36,061 nucleotides of DNA from an uncultured Bacteroidales bacterium. Lineage in GTDB: Bacteria; Bacteroidota; Bacteroidia; Bacteroidales; UBA4417. The stretch covers positions 1 through 36,061 of the forward strand of contig CAIJPI010000088.1 in the NCBI GenBank assembly GCA_903822525.1, read 5' to 3'. The position numbers were made by a program, and so were the translations under genes. Shown here one piece after another: positions 1,567 through 24,139 of this stretch. The stretch's first letter is position 1; every line of letters starts with the position of its first letter. Below the pieces are notes generated by a model. That model ran no database searches. It had not been told where the DNA came from and was given only the letters and a program-made list of their open reading frames with translations.

Positions 1567-4029
1567 ATGTTCGAAAAGATAAAATCCCATACCTCCACTC
1601 CCGAAAGACCGGCAACTGCCGAAGGAAATTTCTACGGGCCAAAGACCACAGGGAAAGGCCCCGGCATGAACGAACGGATTCAGAAACTCCGGAAACTGAG
1701 CTTCGAAACCGAACCCTCACTTTCCATTGAACGGGCTCTTCATGAGACTGCCTTTTATAAAGAGAACTATGGGAAATACTCCATCCCGGTTCTGCGGGCA
1801 TTGAATTTTATGGATCATTGCAGCAGGAAAACCATTTATATAGGCGAAGGAGAACTGATTGTTGGCGAACGCGGGCCTAAACCGAAAAGCGTATCCACTT
1901 TCCCTGAACTCACCTGCCATAGTGCTGAAGATTTCCAGGTGCTGAATACACGCGACATGCAGCGCTATACGATCAGCCAGGATGATATTGCCCTCTACGA
2001 AAAAGAAGTTATCCCTTACTGGAAAGGCAAAACACAACGTGAGCGCATTTTCGGGCATGTACCCCACGAATGGAGAGCGGCATACGAAGCAGGCCTGTTT
2101 ACCGAGTTTATGGAACAGCGCGCTCCCGGGCATACCTCCCTCGATGGTAAGATTTACCAAAAAGGCATGCTTGACTTTAAAAATGAAATTGCCGTTCAGC
2201 TTTCGAATCTCGATTACCTGAACGATCCTGACGCTACTGATAAGGCTGAGCAATGGAAAGCCATGGACATTTCGTGCGATGCCGTTATTGTTTTTGCTGA
2301 GCGCCATGCTGAAATGGCCACCTCACTGGCTTCGGCCGAAAGCAATCCCGAACGGGCCGCTGAGTTAAAAAAAATTGCCGAAGTATGCCGTTGGGTACCT
2401 GCCCATGCACCGCGTAACTTTTGGGAAGCCATACAGATGTATTGGTTTGTGCACCTGGGAACCATTACCGAGCTGAATGGCTGGGATGCCATGAACCCGG
2501 GCCATTTCGATCAGCACCTGGCCCCGTTTTACACCGGGGATATGGCTGATGGCACCCTTACTCGCGATCAGGCTAAAGAACTTATTTCGTGCTTCTGGAT
2601 TAAGGTCAACAACCATCCGGCACCGCCCAAAGTAGGTATAACGGCGCGCGAAAGCGGAACCTACAACGATTTTACGAATATCAATATCGGAGGCGTAAAA
2701 GGCGATGGCACCGACGGAACCAGCGAAGTTTCGTATCTGATGCTCGAAGTAACCGAAGAACTGCATATACTGCAACCGGGCAACTCGGTTCATATCAGTG
2801 CAGATACCCCCGATAAATTCCTTCATGCCGCCGCGCATGTGATACGGCAGGGACATGGATACCCTTCGGTATTTAATCCTGATATTTATATCCCGGAGAT
2901 GCTCCGGCAGGGGAAAACACTGCAGGATGCGCGCGAGGGAGGATGCAGCGGATGCATTGAAGTAGGAGCCTTTGGCAAGGAAGCATACCTGCTTACCGGC
3001 TACCTGAACGTGCCAAAGATTTTTGAGATAACCCTCAACAATGGGAATGATCCCGTAACAGGGAAAGTTGTCGGGATAAAAACCGGCGACCCGCGCAAAT
3101 TCATCTCATACCAGGAACTTTACCAGGCATTCCTGAAACAACTGCAGTTTGTGGTGGATCAGAAAATGAGAGTCAGCAATTACATCGACCGTATGTTTGC
3201 AAAATATGCCCCGGCACCATTTCTTTCGGTTGTAATCGACGACTGTATTGCCAAAGGGAAAGACTATTACGACGGGGGACCGCGATACAATACCAGCTAC
3301 ATTCAATGCTGCGGACTCGGCACCGTAACCGATAGCCTGGCAGCATTAAAAAAACATGTTTTTGAAGACAAGACGTTCAGCATGGACAGGGTACTGAATG
3401 CTGTGCTTAAGAACTTTGAAGGAGAGGAGATGCTAAGGCAGACTATTATCAACCGGACTCCATTTTTCGGCAACGATGATGACTATGCCGACAGCATTGC
3501 CGTTAATGTTTACAACGACCTGGTTGATACCATCGATGGAAAGCCCAACATAAAACCGGGTGGAAAGTACCATCTGAATATGCTTTCGACTACCTGCCAT
3601 GTATATTTCGGAAAAGTAATGGGTGCAAGCCCCAATGGACGGCTGGCAGGAAAATCAATTTCCGATGGCACCTCACCCTCACATGGCGCTGATACGCATG
3701 GGCCTTCGGCTGTTATAAAGTCGCTTACCAGGTTAGATCATAAAAAATCGGGTGGCACCCTGCTGAACCAGCGTTTTTTACCCGGCATGCTGCGCAAGGA
3801 AGAAGATATACGGAAACTGGGGCACCTGATCCGGACGTATTTTACACTCGGTGGCCATCATATTCAGTTTAACATTGTCGACACGGCTACATTATTGGCA
3901 GCACAGGCCTGTCCTGAGGATTACAGAGACCTGCTGGTTCGTATGGCCGGCTACAGCGATTATTTCAACGATATGAATGCAGATCTGCAACAGGAAGTGA
4001 TAGAGCGTACTGAGAATGACTCGTTTTGA
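1567..4029 (+). CDS. hypD: Glycyl radical enzyme, probable trans-4-hydroxy-L-proline dehydratase
   Basis: This 820-residue glycyl radical enzyme has the thiyl cysteine and base in G-C-I-E (Cys463, Glu465) and the radical loop R-M-A-G-Y-S with Gly795. Residues I remember from the Clostridioides difficile HypD site align at a constant offset of +29 (+30 near the C-terminus): Phe181, His189, Asp307, Ser363, Asp368, Phe369, Tyr479 and Thr675. HypD dehydrates trans-4-hydroxy-L-proline to pyrroline-5-carboxylate, which ProC reduces to proline. It works anaerobically in the cytosol. The partner activase follows at 4570. No proC is visible in the window. The N-terminus is about 30 residues longer than HypD; the second Met (residue 34, position 1666) matches the usual start and may be the true one. 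A related GRE with another substrate is possible, but residue agreement makes this less likely. Confidence 0.87.
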   Translation: MFEKIKSHTSTPERPATAEGNFYGPKTTGKGPGMNERIQKLRKLSFETEPSLSIERALHETAFYKENYGKYSIPVLRALNFMDHCSRKTIYIGEGELIVGERGPKPKSVSTFPELTCHSAEDFQVLNTRDMQRYTISQDDIALYEKEVIPYWKGKTQRERIFGHVPHEWRAAYEAGLFTEFMEQRAPGHTSLDGKIYQKGMLDFKNEIAVQLSNLDYLNDPDATDKAEQWKAMDISCDAVIVFAERHAEMATSLASAESNPERAAELKKIAEVCRWVPAHAPRNFWEAIQMYWFVHLGTITELNGWDAMNPGHFDQHLAPFYTGDMADGTLTRDQAKELISCFWIKVNNHPAPPKVGITARESGTYNDFTNINIGGVKGDGTDGTSEVSYLMLEVTEELHILQPGNSVHISADTPDKFLHAAAHVIRQGHGYPSVFNPDIYIPEMLRQGKTLQDAREGGCSGCIEVGAFGKEAYLLTGYLNVPKIFEITLNNGNDPVTGKVVGIKTGDPRKFISYQELYQAFLKQLQFVVDQKMRVSNYIDRMFAKYAPAPFLSVVIDDCIAKGKDYYDGGPRYNTSYIQCCGLGTVTDSLAALKKHVFEDKTFSMDRVLNAVLKNFEGEEMLRQTIINRTPFFGNDDDYADSIAVNVYNDLVDTIDGKPNIKPGGKYHLNMLSTTCHVYFGKVMGASPNGRLAGKSISDGTSPSHGADTHGPSAVIKSLTRLDHKKSGGTLLNQRFLPGMLRKEEDIRKLGHLIRTYFTLGGHHIQFNIVDTATLLAAQACPEDYRDLLVRMAGYSDYFNDMNADLQQEVIERTENDSF

Positions 4030-4547
4030 AAGAGTCGGAAGTCGGAAGTCGGAAGTCGGAAGTCAGGAGCCTGGAGTCAGGAGTCTGGAGTCTGGAGTCA
4101 GGAGTCAGGAATCTGGAATCTGGAGTTGGGAGCCGGGAGTTGGGGTCTTCCATTTCCATTTCCATCTTCCGTCTTCCGTCTTCCATCTTCCATCTTCCGT
4201 CTTCCGTCTTCCGTCTTCCGACTTCCGACTTCCGACTTCAATCTTCCGTCTTCCGTCTTCCATCTTCCATCTTCAATCTTCAATCTTCAATCTTCCGTCT
4301 TCCGTCTTCCGTCTTCCGTCTTCCATCTTCCATCTTCCATCTTCCATCTTCCATCTTCCATCTTCCATCTTCCGTCTTCAATCTTCCGTCTTCCATCTTC
4401 CATCTTCAATCTTCCGTCTTCCGTCTTCCGTCTTCCATCTTCAATCTTCCGTCTTCCGTCTTCCGACTTCCGTCTTCCGACTTCCGACTTCCGACTTCCG
4501 ACTCCCGACTCCCGACTCCCGACTCCCAACTCCCAACTCTTTCAAAA
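4024..4547. repeat. Heptanucleotide array with 12-bp perfect inverted ends
   Basis: The segment is bounded by TTTTGAAAGAGT (4024-4035) and its exact reverse complement ACTCTTTCAAAA (4536-4547). Inside, 4036-4140 holds 15 units of the word CGGAAGT and variants (CTGGAGT, CAGGAGT, TGGGAGC). About 4146-4535 holds roughly 55 units in the opposite orientation: CTTCCGT, CTTCCAT, CTTCAAT, CTTCCGA and CTCCCGA. Except for two 6-base units near 4150-4165, the 7-base phase is unbroken. Variants occur in runs, for example seven consecutive CTTCCAT, as expected from slippage or unequal exchange. The two arms are complementary and could form a very large imperfect hairpin or cruciform. The left terminal repeat includes the hypD stop codon at 4027-4029. 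Because 7 is not a multiple of 3, all frames stay open and produce spurious L-P-S-S-type peptides. Confidence 0.95.
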
Positions 4548-4569
4548 CCAAATCCCCCAATCTACCCAC

Positions 4570-5478
4570 ATGACTCCAAGCCTGATCTTTGATATAAAAC
4601 GCTATGCCATTAACGATGGTCCGGGTATACGCCTGGTGGTCTTTTTCAAAGGCTGTAACCTGCGTTGTGCCTGGTGCCATAATCCGGAAAGCATCTCGGC
4701 AAAGGCAGAGAAGATGTATACACCTGCTAAATGCATCAAATGCGGAACCTGCGTTGAGGCATGTCCCGAAAATGCCATTACACTCACCTCTGAGGGGATA
4801 ATCACAGATGCCGACCTCTGCCGTATGTGCGGCAAATGTGCCGATGTATGCCCGAGCAAGGCAATTGTGATGTCAGGAAAAGTGATGTCAGTTGCTGAAA
4901 TCATGGATGCTATTGAAAAAGAGAGGGTGTTTTTCGATCAATCAGGCGGAGGTGTCACTTTTTCGGGTGGCGAACCGCTGCTGCATACTAAACTACTTAT
5001 TGAATTGCTCGACGAATGCGGTAAAAAAGGAATTCACCGTGCAGTTGATACGGCAGGGAATGTGAGTACTGAAACCCTTCTTGAAGTGGCCGGGCGCACT
5101 GACCTTTTTCTCTACGATCTAAAGATGATGGATACAGAATTGCACCGCAAATGGACAACAGCAGGCAACCGAAAGATACTTCATAATCTGAAAATACTGG
5201 CCGGAACCGGAGCCAACATTATTATACGTATTCCGCTCATTGGGGGAATAAACGATACCGTCGAAAACATACAACTGACGGCAAAATTCATTTCTGAATT
5301 AGACGGTGAACCTAAGGAAGTACACCTTCTGCCCTACCATGCCATTGCACAGCACAAATACCTGAAACTAGGCAGGGCCGGTGATTTTGAGAGACTGATG
5401 GAGCCCGGCAGTGAAACTATTGCAAATGCAATTTCAATATTCGGGAAATATGGAATACGGGCGGAAGTAGGTGGATAG
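4570..5478 (+). CDS. Glycyl radical enzyme activase (radical SAM)
   Basis: A 302-residue radical SAM protein that installs the glycyl radical on its partner. Counting from the ATG at 4570, the AdoMet-cluster motif is C29-x3-C33-x2-C36. Two ferredoxin-type 4Fe-4S sets follow (Cys55/58/61/65 and Cys84/87/90/94), and then the F-S-G-G-E-P-L motif that contacts AdoMet. This two-extra-cluster layout is normal for activases of dehydratase and decarboxylase GREs rather than for PflA. It lies in the same direction as the hypD-like gene and should be co-transcribed, although the heptad array separates them. The reading frame stays open upstream through the array to a Met codon at 4126, but the family length and the N-terminal sequence (FDIKRYAINDGPGIR) support the start at 4570. 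Confidence 0.93.
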   Translation: MTPSLIFDIKRYAINDGPGIRLVVFFKGCNLRCAWCHNPESISAKAEKMYTPAKCIKCGTCVEACPENAITLTSEGIITDADLCRMCGKCADVCPSKAIVMSGKVMSVAEIMDAIEKERVFFDQSGGGVTFSGGEPLLHTKLLIELLDECGKKGIHRAVDTAGNVSTETLLEVAGRTDLFLYDLKMMDTELHRKWTTAGNRKILHNLKILAGTGANIIIRIPLIGGINDTVENIQLTAKFISELDGEPKEVHLLPYHAIAQHKYLKLGRAGDFERLMEPGSETIANAISIFGKYGIRAEVGG

Positions 5479-7358: not shown

Positions 7359-8627
7359 TTACGGATACAGCAACTGAGGTTCAGTTTTTCCAAAAAGAAT
7401 GGATGAGGAGGAGGGCAGTACAATTCCGGTATTTTCATTGCGGCCTTGCAGAATAAACCTGGGTTCAGGATTATTTATTTCATCAACAGCCTGAAGAGAT
7501 ATTTTTCCGATATCACCACCTTTTACGCGGTTCCAGATCAGAGCCAGTTTCATCCCGGTGAAACCGGTCATCATTTCATAATCGCCATCGCTGTCGCCGG
7601 CCGAAAACAAAGGATCCCAGTTTTTACCGAGTCCTGTTTTTATTATACGGTTGATAGCTTCAACTTTCCCCTGCCGGTATGTTTTAACCCACCCGGTTTT
7701 ATATACAGGCAGAATAACGTTATTGGCGGTTTCAAGTTCCATGGCAATAATATTTTCGTCAGGCACATTGTAACCAAATGCTCCCACACCGGCAAAAGCC
7801 TCTACAACAGGCTTGTAACTTGCTGAAACAATATAAACCTCGATTCCATGCTCTTCGAAAGTTGCAATCAGATCCTGCATTTCCGGAAAAATACGTAAGC
7901 CCGAACGGTACGAATACATAACCCCGCTTATATTGGCCGGGAAGTTTGATGGCGACTGCCAGGTAACTTTACTCAGTTTATTGCTTAGTTCGTAGGAGAT
8001 GGCTTCCCTGGCCAGTGCTTTAATTTCAACAGTTGTATAGCCTGACAGTAAATACAGTACCCAGGGGTAACCGTACTCAGCCTCAATACCAGGCGTACTG
8101 CAATATCCGTTATACAAGTAAGGTAGTTTGGCAATAAAATCGATATATGGATTGGTTAGTTTAATTTCTTCGAGCGACAACGATCCATTAAAACCTGAAT
8201 AATTGTCGTAAAGGAAATTGTAATCATTTATCAGATCCTGGTTAATATCCGAAAGCAGGATGTTTTGAAAACCATCGGATAGGTTAGTTACCCCGTTAAT
8301 ATCCGGTTTTAAAATAGTACTGAATTGTTCAGGGGTAATCCTGAACTTTAAATTCGACAACTGGTAATGCAGCAAAGCTTCCTCTGTATCAAAATGGGCA
8401 CAGGTCTGATCCCAGTCCAGCACTACATACGGTGGCCTATTTTTATCATAGAATTTCCCGTTAACCCCATAATTACGGATCAACTGATCCAAAACCTCAT
8501 AGTTCCTGGCTTCCCAGTTCAGCCTGTTAAGCGAATCTGTCGTTGAAATAATCTGATCGTTTTTACAACAAGCTGAAATCATAGCAATTATCCCAAGACA
8601 TATACATACTAAAAACCAGTTTTTCAT
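7359..8627 (-). CDS. HAD-superfamily phosphatase-like lipoprotein
   Basis: A 422-residue lipoprotein. The signal sequence ends in the lipobox I-S-A-C with Cys20. The HAD motif I D-W-D-Q-T (Asp71, Asp73) supplies the nucleophile and acid. Motif II is the V-S-A-S-Y-K region, and G-D-S-D-G-D-Y-E-M near the C-terminus is the metal-binding motif. The large insertion between motifs I and II is a cap of the kind found in phosphoserine-phosphatase-like HADs. It should hydrolyse phosphate esters outside the cytoplasm. The substrate is unknown. It is transcribed alone, convergent with the peptidase gene, and its 5' side faces the long non-coding region. Confidence 0.88.
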   Translation of the reverse strand: MKNWFLVCICLGIIAMISACCKNDQIISTTDSLNRLNWEARNYEVLDQLIRNYGVNGKFYDKNRPPYVVLDWDQTCAHFDTEEALLHYQLSNLKFRITPEQFSTILKPDINGVTNLSDGFQNILLSDINQDLINDYNFLYDNYSGFNGSLSLEEIKLTNPYIDFIAKLPYLYNGYCSTPGIEAEYGYPWVLYLLSGYTTVEIKALAREAISYELSNKLSKVTWQSPSNFPANISGVMYSYRSGLRIFPEMQDLIATFEEHGIEVYIVSASYKPVVEAFAGVGAFGYNVPDENIIAMELETANNVILPVYKTGWVKTYRQGKVEAINRIIKTGLGKNWDPLFSAGDSDGDYEMMTGFTGMKLALIWNRVKGGDIGKISLQAVDEINNPEPRFILQGRNENTGIVLPSSSSILFGKTEPQLLYP

Positions 8628-8690
8628 AATAATGTGTCATTATTTATACTTATATTTTAATTCTATTTCGGGCAAAGTGTTTATTTAAAA

Positions 8691-8739
8691 ATGTCGGATG
8701 TTAGATGTTGGATGTTGGGGGATGGGGGATGGGGGATGG
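8691..8739. repeat. Short degenerate heptad repeat
   Basis: The units are ATGTCGG, ATGTTAG, ATGTTGG and ATGTTGG, followed by a G-rich shift to two ATGGGGG units. The word is the same as the array at 18291-18404 but shorter and more degraded. It lies between divergent genes, 64 bases upstream of the HAD lipoprotein start. Confidence 0.85.
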
Positions 8740-9123
8740 ATTTTAAGATAAGTTACTCCAAGTCAATGTTAGATATAGTTATAGATAAGTGTCAAATATT
8801 GTGGATTCTTACTGTTTTAGTGGATTAGTGGCTAAAAAAAACAGCTATGAGTTCACAAAGAATCACTAATCCAGACTGCAACGCTTTTCAAAAGTTGAGA
8901 CAAAAGATTAGCATAGTAATATCTAAAGCAATAAACCCCAAAAAACCAACTTTAAAGAACGGAAATTAAGCTAATTAGAAGGTTTCACCAATGGTTTCCA
9001 TCTTCAATATGTCACAACATTTTTCTGTCAGCAAAAATACAATTTTATACTTATTTACTCATTAACTGATTCCGAATAAATAGTTTAAATATGATTTATG
9101 TGCATATTTTTGAAAATAATAAA

Positions 9124-17495: not shown

Positions 17496-18290
17496 ATGAC
17501 TCCATCACGAACAATCTGGATTACGGGAGCTTCATCAGGAATCGGCGAAGCATTGGCTTTGCAGTGGGCAAGTCCTGAAACCACACTTATTCTTTCGGGA
17601 CTTGAAGAGAAGCAACTGGAGCCAGTTGCTGTAAAATGCGAAAGTCGGGGAGCCAGGGTTCAAATTATCCCTTTCAATCTCACAAATGAGGCTGAAATCG
17701 CTGAAGCTGCAAACAAAGTTCAGACTATGATCCCAAAAATTGATATTCTTGTCAATTGCGGTGGTATTGGGCAACGTTCATTAATCATTGAAACTCCTGA
17801 TGCTGTTTCACGAAAGATCATGGAAACGGATTTTTGGGGCCATGCCACTCTCACCAGCAGGATTCTACCATTTATGGTGAAAACAGGTGGTGGAACTATT
17901 GTAGTAATGAGCAGCCTGTCAGGACTTTTCGGGTTTCCACAACGCTCCATGTATTGCGCCGCAAAGCATGCCCTGCACGGATTTTTCGAAACTCTCAGGC
18001 TAGAGCATCATAAAGATAAGATTAACGTTCTGATGGTTTGTCCTGGAAGAGTAAGAACCAATTTCTCTTACGGCGCACTGACAGCTACAGGCGACAAGCA
18101 CGGAAAAATGGATAAAGGTCAGGCAAACGGAGTATCAGCTGAATACTGTGCTGCCAAAATTGACAAGGCTGTTAAAAGGAATAAAAAACAGGTACTGATT
18201 GGAAAAAAAGAACTAATCATGGCCTATTTAAAACGTTTCGCTCCCTGGTTGTTTTACAAAATAGCATTGAAGATTGATCCTAATTCCTAA
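17496..18290 (+). CDS. Short-chain dehydrogenase/reductase
   Basis: A 264-residue classical SDR oxidoreductase. It has the nucleotide-binding motif T-G-A-S-S-G-I-G at residues 10-17, N-C-G-G near 87-90 (usual N-N-A-G, here N-C-G-G), the catalytic Ser in M-S-S-L-S-G-L-F-G and the Y-x-x-x-K pair Tyr153/Lys157. The P-G-R-V-R-T-N-F segment after the active site and the C-terminal hydrophobic K-R-F-A-P-W-L-F-Y-K tail match the DHRS7-like or DltE-like branch, which often reduces lipid-like or keto substrates at membranes. The substrate is unknown. A heptad array touches the stop codon, and a VOC protein follows in the same direction. Confidence 0.92.
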   Translation: MTPSRTIWITGASSGIGEALALQWASPETTLILSGLEEKQLEPVAVKCESRGARVQIIPFNLTNEAEIAEAANKVQTMIPKIDILVNCGGIGQRSLIIETPDAVSRKIMETDFWGHATLTSRILPFMVKTGGGTIVVMSSLSGLFGFPQRSMYCAAKHALHGFFETLRLEHHKDKINVLMVCPGRVRTNFSYGALTATGDKHGKMDKGQANGVSAEYCAAKIDKAVKRNKKQVLIGKKELIMAYLKRFAPWLFYKIALKIDPNS

Positions 18291-18404
18291 TGTCGGATGT
18301 CGGATGTCGGATGTCGGATGTCGGATGTCGGATGTCGGATGTCGGATGTCGGATGTCGGATGTCGGATGTTGGATGTCGGATGTTGGATGTTGGATGTTG
18401 GATG
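18291..18404. repeat. Heptanucleotide array, word TGTCGGA
   Basis: About 16 tandem units of 7 bases start at the base after the TAA of the SDR gene. The first ten or so are identical (TGTCGGA), and towards the 3' end they become TGTTGGA. Homogeneity at one end and mutation at the other suggests growth or homogenisation at the SDR-proximal side. No inverted partner arm is present, unlike the array at 4024. Confidence 0.95.
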
Positions 18405-18474
18405 TAAGAATCAATTTCTAATTTTTTTTTGAAACCTTCAAACCACTAAGACTTAATACCAAAACCTATTTAAA

Positions 18475-20944: not shown

Positions 20945-21067
20945 GTCAGACACCCCTTCGGGTGTGCAGACACGTGTCTAATTTAGTAGTCAGACGCCCT
21001 TCGGGTGTGCAGACACGTATCTAATTTAGTAGTCAGACACCCTTCGGGTGTGCAGACGCGTATGATT
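20945..21067. repeat. Three tandem ~43-bp repeats with TTCG hairpins
   Basis: The units span 20945-20988, 20989-21031 and 21032-about 21067. Each reads GTCAGAC, then ACCCTTCGGGTGT (a stem closed by a TTCG tetraloop), then GCAGACACG and TATCTAATTTAGTA. Unit 1 also holds the 12-bp palindrome AGACACGTGTCT. The third unit is cut short. They lie between divergent genes, where three terminators in a row are not needed, so a REP-like or regulator-binding role is plausible. Confidence 0.85.
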
Positions 21068-21196
21068 TCACTATCAAAGGAACGAAATATTTTTAATTTT
21101 TCTGACTTAGTAAATAAAATTAAAAAGAGCGTATTTTTACACATTCATTTGCCCGGAACCAACATATTTATTCCATTTACATTCATTACCCATTTT

Positions 21197-24139
21197 ATGA
21201 AAAAGACAACCTTACTTTTGTTGCTTTCAGTTGCAGTTTCGTTCGTGGCAAAGGCACAGAAACTGCCTGCCGATTATGTAAACACATTTATAGGAACCGG
21301 AGGACACGGGCATACATATCCCGGAGCAACCATGCCTTTTGGGATGGTGCAACTGAGTCCTGATACCAGGCTTGAAGGCTGGGACGGTTGTGGCGGGTAT
21401 CATTACGACGACAACTACATTTATGGTTTCTCGCATACCCACCTCAACGGAACAGGTGTTCCCGACCTGTGCGACATACTCATTATGCCTACTACAGGCG
21501 AAACCCGCTGGAATAATGGCTCCGACGGCAAACCCGGTTACGGCTCACATTTCAGGCACAGCAGCGAGAGTGCCGAACCCGGATATTACAAGGTCGCTCT
21601 CGATGATTATAATATTACAGCAGAACTCACTGCAACCACACGTGCCGGAATGCATTGTTATACTTTCCCTGCCGGAAAGGAATCGAACATAATGCTTGAC
21701 CTTTTTCATCGCGACGAGGTGCTCAGTTCATCCATCAGGGTGATCAGCAACACCCGGATTGAAGGATTAAGGCGGTCGCGTTCCTGGGCTGAGAATCAAT
21801 ATGTTTACTTTGTTGCCGAATTTTCGAAACCTTTTGCTTCGTACGAAATTGCGGTCGATAACATAATTAAGCCGGGGATTAATTCGGCAGAAAACGAAAA
21901 GAACATAAAAGCTGCCTTTCATTTTACCACTACTGCCGGCGAAAATATTTATGTAAAAGTCGGCATTTCGGCAGTTAGCGAAGCCGGCGCTGGTTTGAAC
22001 CTTGAAACAGAAATACCCGGCTGGAATTACGACAAGGTGCGCATCGATGCAAAAGTGGCCTGGAATAAAGAACTTTCGAAAATTGAAGTCGAAGGAGGAA
22101 CCGATCTGCAGAAAACTGTTTTTTATACCGCCTTATACCATACCATGGTAAATCCGAATACCTATATGGATGTTGACGGCAGTTACCGCGGGCGTGACCT
22201 GAAAGTGCATAAAGACGCATCGTTTACCAACTATACTGTTTTCTCGCTATGGGATACTTACCGGGCTTGTCATCCCCTGATGACCATTATTGATCAGAAA
22301 CGTACACTTGACTATATTAAAACCTTTCTGACCCAATACGATCAGGGCGGCTTACTGCCTGTTTGGGAACTTGCCGGAAACGAAACCTTCTGTATGATAG
22401 GATATCATTCAGTTCCTGTGATTGTTGACGCCTATCTGAAAGGAATAAAAGGGTTTGATACTGAAAAAGCTTTCGCAGCTATGAAAAAGAGCGCTATGCG
22501 TGAAGGCAATGCCGGATTAAAAGCAGTGGATAAAAACGGGTATGTTTCTACAGAAGATGAATCGGAAAGTGTTTCAAAAACACTCGAATATGCTTATGAC
22601 GACTGGTGTATTGCACAATTTGCAAAAGCAACAGGGAAAGCAGATGAATACAAATATTTTATCAAACGGGGACAGAACTTCAAAAACCTCTTTGATGCGT
22701 CAACGGGGTTTATGCGAGCCCGTTCCAATGGCGGATGGTTTAATCCTTTCGATCCTTTTGAAGTAAATTTCAATTATACCGAAGCCAATTCGTGGCAATA
22801 CAGTTTTTCGGCTGTGCAGGATATGACCGGCTTTATTCAGTTGCATGGAGGAAAACAAAACCTGGCAAAAAAACTTGATGATCTGTTCAGCGTTTCATCC
22901 AAGACCTCGGGGCGCGACCAGAGCGATATAACCGGTTTGATTGGCCAGTATGCACACGGCAACGAGCCGAGCCACCATATTGCATATCTCTATCCTTTTG
23001 CCGGACAAGCTTATAAAACGCAGGAACTGGTTCACCGCATTCTCAGCACTTTATATCACAACAATCCTGATGGACTTACCGGTAACGAAGACTGCGGGCA
23101 AATGTCGGCATGGGCTGTAATGAGTGCCATGGGGTTTTACCCGGTTATACCGGGAACGGATACCTATGTAATCGGGACTCCCTGGTTCAGTAAAACGACC
23201 ATTCACCTCGAAAATGGCAAGACGTTCGTTATAAAAGCAGACAATATTTCGGAACATAATTTTTACATCAGTTCGGCCAAACTCAACAATAAAACATATA
23301 ATGCCTCCTATCTGAAACATGATGATATTCTGAATGGTGGTGAGCTGGTATTTACCATGAGTCCCGAACCAAACAAAACCTGGGGAACAGGAGCCGGAAA
23401 CGAGCCATCCACTTCTGTTTCCGACAACCTGATTGTAGCAGCACCTGCCATACTGGAGGCCTCAAAATCGTTTAAAGACTCAAAAGTGATCAGCATGAGC
23501 GGCCCTGACGGTTCTCAAATTACTTACAGCCTGACAGGAACTGACGGAAAAACATCAACACAAACCTACCAGGAACCTTTCCGGATCGATCAATCATCGA
23601 AACTATATTTTTATGCCGAAAAAGACGGGATCAAAAGCCAGGGTGTTTCATCGGAATTTGTTAAAATGATTGATGATAAAAGCATTACGCTGACCTACCC
23701 GCCGGCAAATCAATATTCAGGCGGAGGCGTAAATAACCTGATCGACGGCATCCGTTGTTCCCCCGACTTCAAAGTTGGCGGTTGGCTGGGTTTTGAAAAA
23801 ACCAACCTGGAAGCTCTAATCGATTTACGCGAAGTAAAACCAGTATCCACTTTTGGTGCCGGCTTCCTGCAGGACATTAATTCCTGGATTTTCATGCCTT
23901 CACAGGTTGAGTTTTTTGTATCCGAAAACGGAATGGATTACCACTCGGCCGGTATTGTTAAAAACGATATTCCTCAGGATAAAGATGGCGTATTCCTTAA
24001 AACTTTTGAAACGAAAACAGCTCCTGTAAATGCCCGGTATGTAAAAATCATAGCAACCAATATTGGTAATTGTCCTGCAGGACACAAAGCACAAGGCGGG
24101 GCTGCCTGGATGTTCGCTGATGAAATTATTGTAAAATAA
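21197..24139 (+). CDS. GH92 alpha-mannosidase with C-terminal binding domains
   Basis: A 980-residue secreted protein. The ATG at 21197 starts a clean signal peptide (M-K-K-T-T-L-L-L-L-L, cleaved after A-K-A-Q). Residues about 25-760 are glycoside hydrolase family 92: Y-V-N-T-F-I-G-T-G-G-H-G-H-T-Y-P-G-A, then F-S-H-T-H-L-N-G-T-G, H-G-N-E-P-S-H-H and G-N-E-D-C-G-Q-M-S-A-W with the putative general base Asp. GH92 enzymes are calcium-dependent exo-alpha-mannosidases that trim host or fungal mannans and N-glycans. About 800-860 is a short beta domain of the chitobiase C-terminal type, and 860-980 a discoidin/CBM32-like domain. Reading further upstream to 21005 would cross the tandem repeats and is rejected. 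Confidence 0.95.
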   Translation: MKKTTLLLLLSVAVSFVAKAQKLPADYVNTFIGTGGHGHTYPGATMPFGMVQLSPDTRLEGWDGCGGYHYDDNYIYGFSHTHLNGTGVPDLCDILIMPTTGETRWNNGSDGKPGYGSHFRHSSESAEPGYYKVALDDYNITAELTATTRAGMHCYTFPAGKESNIMLDLFHRDEVLSSSIRVISNTRIEGLRRSRSWAENQYVYFVAEFSKPFASYEIAVDNIIKPGINSAENEKNIKAAFHFTTTAGENIYVKVGISAVSEAGAGLNLETEIPGWNYDKVRIDAKVAWNKELSKIEVEGGTDLQKTVFYTALYHTMVNPNTYMDVDGSYRGRDLKVHKDASFTNYTVFSLWDTYRACHPLMTIIDQKRTLDYIKTFLTQYDQGGLLPVWELAGNETFCMIGYHSVPVIVDAYLKGIKGFDTEKAFAAMKKSAMREGNAGLKAVDKNGYVSTEDESESVSKTLEYAYDDWCIAQFAKATGKADEYKYFIKRGQNFKNLFDASTGFMRARSNGGWFNPFDPFEVNFNYTEANSWQYSFSAVQDMTGFIQLHGGKQNLAKKLDDLFSVSSKTSGRDQSDITGLIGQYAHGNEPSHHIAYLYPFAGQAYKTQELVHRILSTLYHNNPDGLTGNEDCGQMSAWAVMSAMGFYPVIPGTDTYVIGTPWFSKTTIHLENGKTFVIKADNISEHNFYISSAKLNNKTYNASYLKHDDILNGGELVFTMSPEPNKTWGTGAGNEPSTSVSDNLIVAAPAILEASKSFKDSKVISMSGPDGSQITYSLTGTDGKTSTQTYQEPFRIDQSSKLYFYAEKDGIKSQGVSSEFVKMIDDKSITLTYPPANQYSGGGVNNLIDGIRCSPDFKVGGWLGFEKTNLEALIDLREVKPVSTFGAGFLQDINSWIFMPSQVEFFVSENGMDYHSAGIVKNDIPQDKDGVFLKTFETKTAPVNARYVKIIATNIGNCPAGHKAQGGAAWMFADEIIVK

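Follow-up and report, generated by a model that had tools for sequence, protein, structure and literature searches.

The window analysed here is the whole 36,061-nt stretch of contig 88 from a 4.1-Mb draft genome of an uncultured Bacteroidales bacterium. On its plus strand, positions 1567..4029 encode HypD, the 820-amino-acid glycyl radical enzyme trans-4-hydroxy-L-proline dehydratase, identified by NCBIfam, PDB and Pfam matches: it scores 1164.7 bits against NF043068 (cut-off 1100), its closest solved structure is PDB 6vxc (E 5e-293), and it contains the PFL-like and Gly_radical domains. The 302-amino-acid radical SAM activase of the dehydratase is encoded on the same strand at 4570..5478. 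Its best NCBIfam model is the trans-4-hydroxy-L-proline dehydratase activase model NF043069, at 356.8 bits under the 425 cut-off, and against the general activating-protein model TIGR02494 it scores over the cut-off. The two genes are 540 nt apart, and the gap between them begins straight after the TGA stop codon of the enzyme (4027-4029).

Between 4024 and 4547 the gap holds about 72 degenerate heptads in two opposed blocks, 16 on the left and 56 on the right, as an earlier note on this DNA had described (about 70 heptads in two opposed arms between enzyme and activase). Unit parsing on the plus strand places the left arm at 4032..4144 (113 nt, 44% G and 14% C; AGTCGGA type, with AAGTCGG, GAGTCAG and GAGTTGG units) and the right arm at 4145..4539 (395 nt, 42% C and 8% G; TCTTCCG type, with CTTCCGT, CTTCCAT, CTTCCGA, CTTCAAT and CTCCCGA units). 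Tandem Repeats Finder reported period 7 at 4032-4148, 4145-4500 (score 432, 90% matches) and 4463-4539. The arms are opposed, but the palindrome described in the earlier note is not an even one, the arms being 113 and 395 nt long and only 68.6-70% complementary in ungapped comparison. The runs of identical variants that it reported are real, with 29 adjacent identical units in the right arm versus 11.9 in permutations (p = 5e-5). The array consists of head-to-tail 7-nt units and is longer than chance would give, as is characteristic of bacterial intergenic heptanucleotide repeats (LSSR/STRR). At the level of sequence, the at least four regularly spaced GGG runs of the G-quadruplex heptads known from Xanthomonas and Nostoc are absent; the left-arm units carry mostly GG, and GGG is confined to near the inner end of the arm. 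All three plus-strand frames are open across the array, which we judged a by-product of heptads without stops rather than a sign of coding.

A misassembled copy number, or an array produced by assembly altogether, might be suspected in a draft of 354 contigs in which one contig (C49) begins inside an array. No exact repeat within the array exceeds 48 bp; ordinary k-mers can therefore resolve it, and assembly collapse is not forced. Independent assemblies of three sister species also contain opposed heptads in the same gap, and we regard an artefact as very unlikely. In the congeners G013, G003 and G008 (loci L042, L043 and L044), AGTCGGA-type heptads are accompanied by a short opposed block. 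The gap of G005 (L048) has TGTCGGA-type versus CTTCTGA-type blocks, and that of G010 (L046:1126-1251) has opposed heptads of another unit, AGTGCAT versus AAGCACT. No such arrays were found in the same gap of G002, G014, G009 and G015. At two further congeneric loci, L045:3114-3416 and L132, the gap is filled with other palindromic repeats (TCCCTAACGGGACT, CCCTGACAGGGTT) that are not heptads. A tree of activases, intended to date the array, contains a sole well-supported clade, G013/G003/G008, and does not place the window.

The array is closed by 13-bp inverted ends, GTTTTGAAAGAGT on the left (4023..4035, plus strand) and its perfect reverse complement on the right (4536..4548; ACTCTTTCAAAAC on the plus strand), the latter read as a minus-strand copy of the gene end. 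These are the perfect 12-bp inverted ends of the earlier note, extended to 13 bp of identity, and the left copy does include the enzyme stop codon at 4027-4029. The earlier note had suggested that the exact ends mark a bounded element and not slippage alone, and had advised looking for them around heptads elsewhere; that interpretation is not supported. The 12-mer TTTTGAAAGAGT has only three occurrences in the 4.1 Mb, two of them at this locus, and no paired ends exist elsewhere in the genome, the dehydratase-activase gap holding the sole pair. The left end, in turn, consists of the terminal codons of the dehydratase (..TTT TGA) and the first bases of the array. The 12-bp ends were consequently rejected as an element signature.

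Comparison with the sister species points to where the right-hand end came from. The left flank in L042 and L044, CGTTTTRARAGAGT, again comprises the last codons of the enzyme and the first repeat bases, and the right flank reads ..CTTCCAGCCAAATC versus ..CTCTTTCAAAACCAAATC in the window. The left end is thus present in the sister species as coding sequence, without the inverted right copy, and the opposed heptads of G013 and G008 lie in the same gap without the right-hand end, the very outcome that the earlier note had named as refuting its proposal. In the right flank of the window, the inverted gene end is joined at CCAAATC, which is common to the sister species. By our own arithmetic, for a fixed register, a match of ten non-repeat bases at that position would arise by chance about once in a million. 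The right-hand end is read as an inverted copy of the end of the enzyme gene, and we infer, no intermediate having been seen, that it is the footprint of a template switch between partly complementary arms; a mechanism by which template switching yields perfect stems has been described (PMC8794818).

A bounded mobile element with 12-13-bp terminal repeats, whether a MITE, a REP or similar, would account for the perfect ends, and a real heptad-carrying MITE exists in this genome. MITEs and insertion elements have the same termini at several loci together with target duplications, whereas here the ends are unique and gene-derived, include the host stop codon and terminal codons, and are flanked by no visible target duplication. 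REP/BIME sequences are short palindromes dispersed in many copies, and the 13-bp ends are paired here only. The MITE ends (GGTTCTACTGC) are not found above chance in the window, which also removes the array as a decayed copy of the heptad-carrying MITE. A mobile element is therefore largely refuted, and we give it hardly any weight.

The MITE family itself is informative about how heptads multiply. Its copies in the source genome (L231-L244) are 211-302 bp long, have the ends GGTTCTACTG/AGTAGAACC, with 8-9-bp duplications in several copies, and carry the heptad seed TTGGAAGCCAGAAG. The heptad inserts of 14 copies measure 14 nt in four, 21 nt in three, 28 nt in three, and 35, 42, 49 and 105 nt in one each, all multiples of 7 nt, corresponding to 2 to 15 units. 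A further copy at C340 contains a longer repeat, and related MITE ends are present in G002, G008, G010 and G011. These copies are direct evidence for copy-number change by whole heptads, a property of LSSR/STRR repeats, and they form an allelic series in which the 7-nt step can be measured. The change in copy number proposed in the earlier note is accordingly seen in one-heptad steps at the MITE loci, and would extend to the window locus by analogy with other loci and with the sister species.

Heptad arrays, which were sampled through pattern searches and genome stretches, are dispersed throughout the genome and are mainly intergenic, as LSSR/STRR repeats are. Four consecutive units of the pattern WGWYNGR gave 231 matches in the source genome versus 5 for the reversed pattern, and every one of the 15 congeners searched, as well as 26 of 104 sampled genera, had four-heptad matches. 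A unit-blind search for tandem periods, covering about 1.16 Mb of three congeneric genomes, detected 55 tracts at period 7 (12 in the source genome, 38 in G004 and 5 in G013) and 0 at periods 4-6. The units are diverse and unrelated, among them TGTCGGA, TCCGCAA, GCACACT, AAACAGG and CAATTTT. The locus is large, even extreme, but ordinary for its lineage.

Other repeats occur in the window. A second, single-armed array of about 16 TGTCGGA units (18290-18405, 97% matches) begins at the stop codon of gene 17496-18290. The gap past the start of the minus-strand gene 7359-8627 contains, at 8685-8749, a short G-rich heptad tract (TGTCGGA/TGTTGGG) followed by GGGGGAT repeats. At 20945-21063, 2.7 copies of a 43-nt unit, each bearing a small ACACCCTTCGGGTGT hairpin, overlap the start of the ORF at 21005-24139. 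In the congener G004, heptad tracts lie between short inverted ends, GGCAGGT...ACCTGCC, in four copies in the sampled stretches (L195:9048, L197:10287, L197:17765 and L197:17838), a different case from the ends in the window.

The arrays have a polarity that depends on which flanking gene is nearer. On the plus strand, 22 tracts nearer the left gene are G-rich and 8 C-rich, and nearer the right gene 1 is G-rich and 35 are C-rich (Fisher p 6e-10), with gaps delimited by an ORF-based gene caller and tracts within one genome not fully independent. With each gap side represented by a single tract and split tracts excluded, the ratios are 20:8 versus 1:28 (p 4e-8). The direction is the same in tandem, convergent and divergent gaps, with few cases in the latter two, and array-free gaps display the same skew weakly in tandem and divergent pairs and lack it in convergent pairs. 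Selection, rather than amplified local base skew alone, could be the source of the polarity. The heptads of Xanthomonas and Nostoc have the same polarity and opposed pairs (PMC4692102), and the G-rich strand being the coding strand after stops and the non-coding strand before starts, with opposed pairs, is typical of LSSR/STRR repeats. Since the opposed layout in the window follows this general rule, the layout alone does not imply a hairpin.

The earlier note had proposed that the arms, in one RNA, could fold into a huge hairpin separating or stabilising the two messages. Pairing is possible: the RNA of the region has a predicted fold of -147.2 kcal/mol (z -6.1 versus shuffles) with 102 left-right pairs, although 289 of 404 right-side nucleotides are unpaired. 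The hairpin might have been selected to protect the dehydratase message or to set the enzyme/activase ratio, and there is a cyanobacterial parallel in the 7-bp STRR between hupS and hupL, for which transcript stability or translational coupling has been considered (PMC2670836). When the same gap was folded across species, z was -7.0 in the window, -0.2 in L042, -1.5 in L044, -1.4 in L048 and -4.1 in L046. Folding is thus strong in the window and L046 only and weak in the other sister-species gaps with opposed heptads, indicating that pairing is not a kept feature and arguing against the proposed role. Among 10 gaps with opposed arms, a small sample, complementarity within a gap was no greater than between arms of different gaps (p = 0.70), and complementary arms were dropped as a general rule. 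Outside the genus, several Bacteroidales have gaps of 0-15 nt, which also speaks against a selected structure; others have gaps of up to about 300 nt and one of about 500 nt. We consider a selected intercistronic hairpin unlikely.

Termination was weighed in two forms. An intrinsic terminator, a GC-rich stem followed by a U run, was rejected: the outer stem is followed by CCAAATCCCCC, with no U run. Alternatively, the unpaired, C-rich and G-poor right arm could load Rho in the untranslated gap and lower activase expression, with copy number tuning the effect. Of all 395-nt stretches on the two strands of the window, the right arm has one of the greatest excesses of C over G, the property measured here for a putative Rho utilisation site; most of it is unpaired in the predicted fold, no U-tract terminator ends it, and a rho gene is present in the source genome. 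C-rich arms before starts are, however, a genus-wide compositional pattern and not specific to this operon, and a Rho-dependent attenuator is in our estimation improbable. The activase message might be subject to a hairpin or to a C-rich attenuator. No conserved feature favours either role, and tolerance of the array is the simplest reading; on the best reading, any function would be incidental.

The locus is probably a pair of long degenerate heptanucleotide repeats that grew in place by slippage, followed by one template switch. Copy number would have changed in steps of complete 7-nt units, two units being enough to begin from, as documented at other loci in the genome. Surviving arrays have, statistically, the polarity described above: towards the left gene most are G-rich, and towards the right gene almost all are C-rich, in any gene orientation, from which it follows that a gap with two arrays has them opposed. 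The arms being partly complementary, a replication template switch of the quasi-palindrome correction type may then have copied the left outer edge in inverted form onto the right edge, carrying the last dehydratase codons with it and producing the perfect 13-bp ends; this step is suggested by the sister-species comparison. The array would be transcribed within the operon, and in the mRNA the activase would be preceded by an intercistronic hairpin of as many as 100 or so pairs and by a long C-rich stretch that is left unpaired. Most likely, both are tolerated, and any effect on how strongly the activase is expressed would be quantitative at most. How the locus formed is fairly clear: unit-wise expansion, a general polarity and one template switch.

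The wider pattern outweighs the locus, in that one genus has many unrelated units with a single step size and polarity. It is conceivable, and we put it forward tentatively, that some mutational process, independent of sequence and with a step fixed at 7 nt, operates in bacterial intergenic DNA and leaves gene-outward G-rich arrays in phyla that are not related (Bacteroidales in this work; Xanthomonas and Nostoc in the literature). The MITE family, whose copies differ only in heptad number, opens the question of why bacteria favour 7-nt repeats to counting and experiment.

The kind of repeat is already known, and the locus is a large new member. A literature search with the literal repeat sequences returned nothing relevant. 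Among the closest known systems are the intergenic G-rich heptamers of Xanthomonas (GGGAATC) and Nostoc (GGGGAYT) (Rehm et al. 2015, PMC4692102), from which the array described here differs in having mostly GG rather than GGG, in units that vary between arrays and species, and in being far longer, with 72 units versus a preferred four. Cyanobacterial STRR (Mazel et al. 1990, as cited in PMC2670836) are likewise 7-bp repeats, with a putative hairpin between two operon genes (hupS/hupL), but belong to another phylum and have other units, and the hoxW example given in PMC2670836 contains no more than four repeats. Intergenic heptads, in Bacteroidetes as well, for which slippage was proposed are also found among long simple sequence repeats with an excess of heptanucleotides (Mrazek et al. 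2007, as summarised in PMC4679880) and as the TAACTGA repeats of Beggiatoaceae, cyanobacteria and some Bacteroidetes (PMC4679880). Unlike the array described here, the TAACTGA repeats have a single fixed unit, lie mostly just upstream of start codons, and do not have opposed blocks as a main feature. Quasi-palindrome template-switch mutations (PMC8794818, PMC7202029) parallel the 13-bp ends in that inverted copying perfects the arms, whereas here the switch would have taken place at the border of a heptad array, and the copied segment would include some coding sequence.
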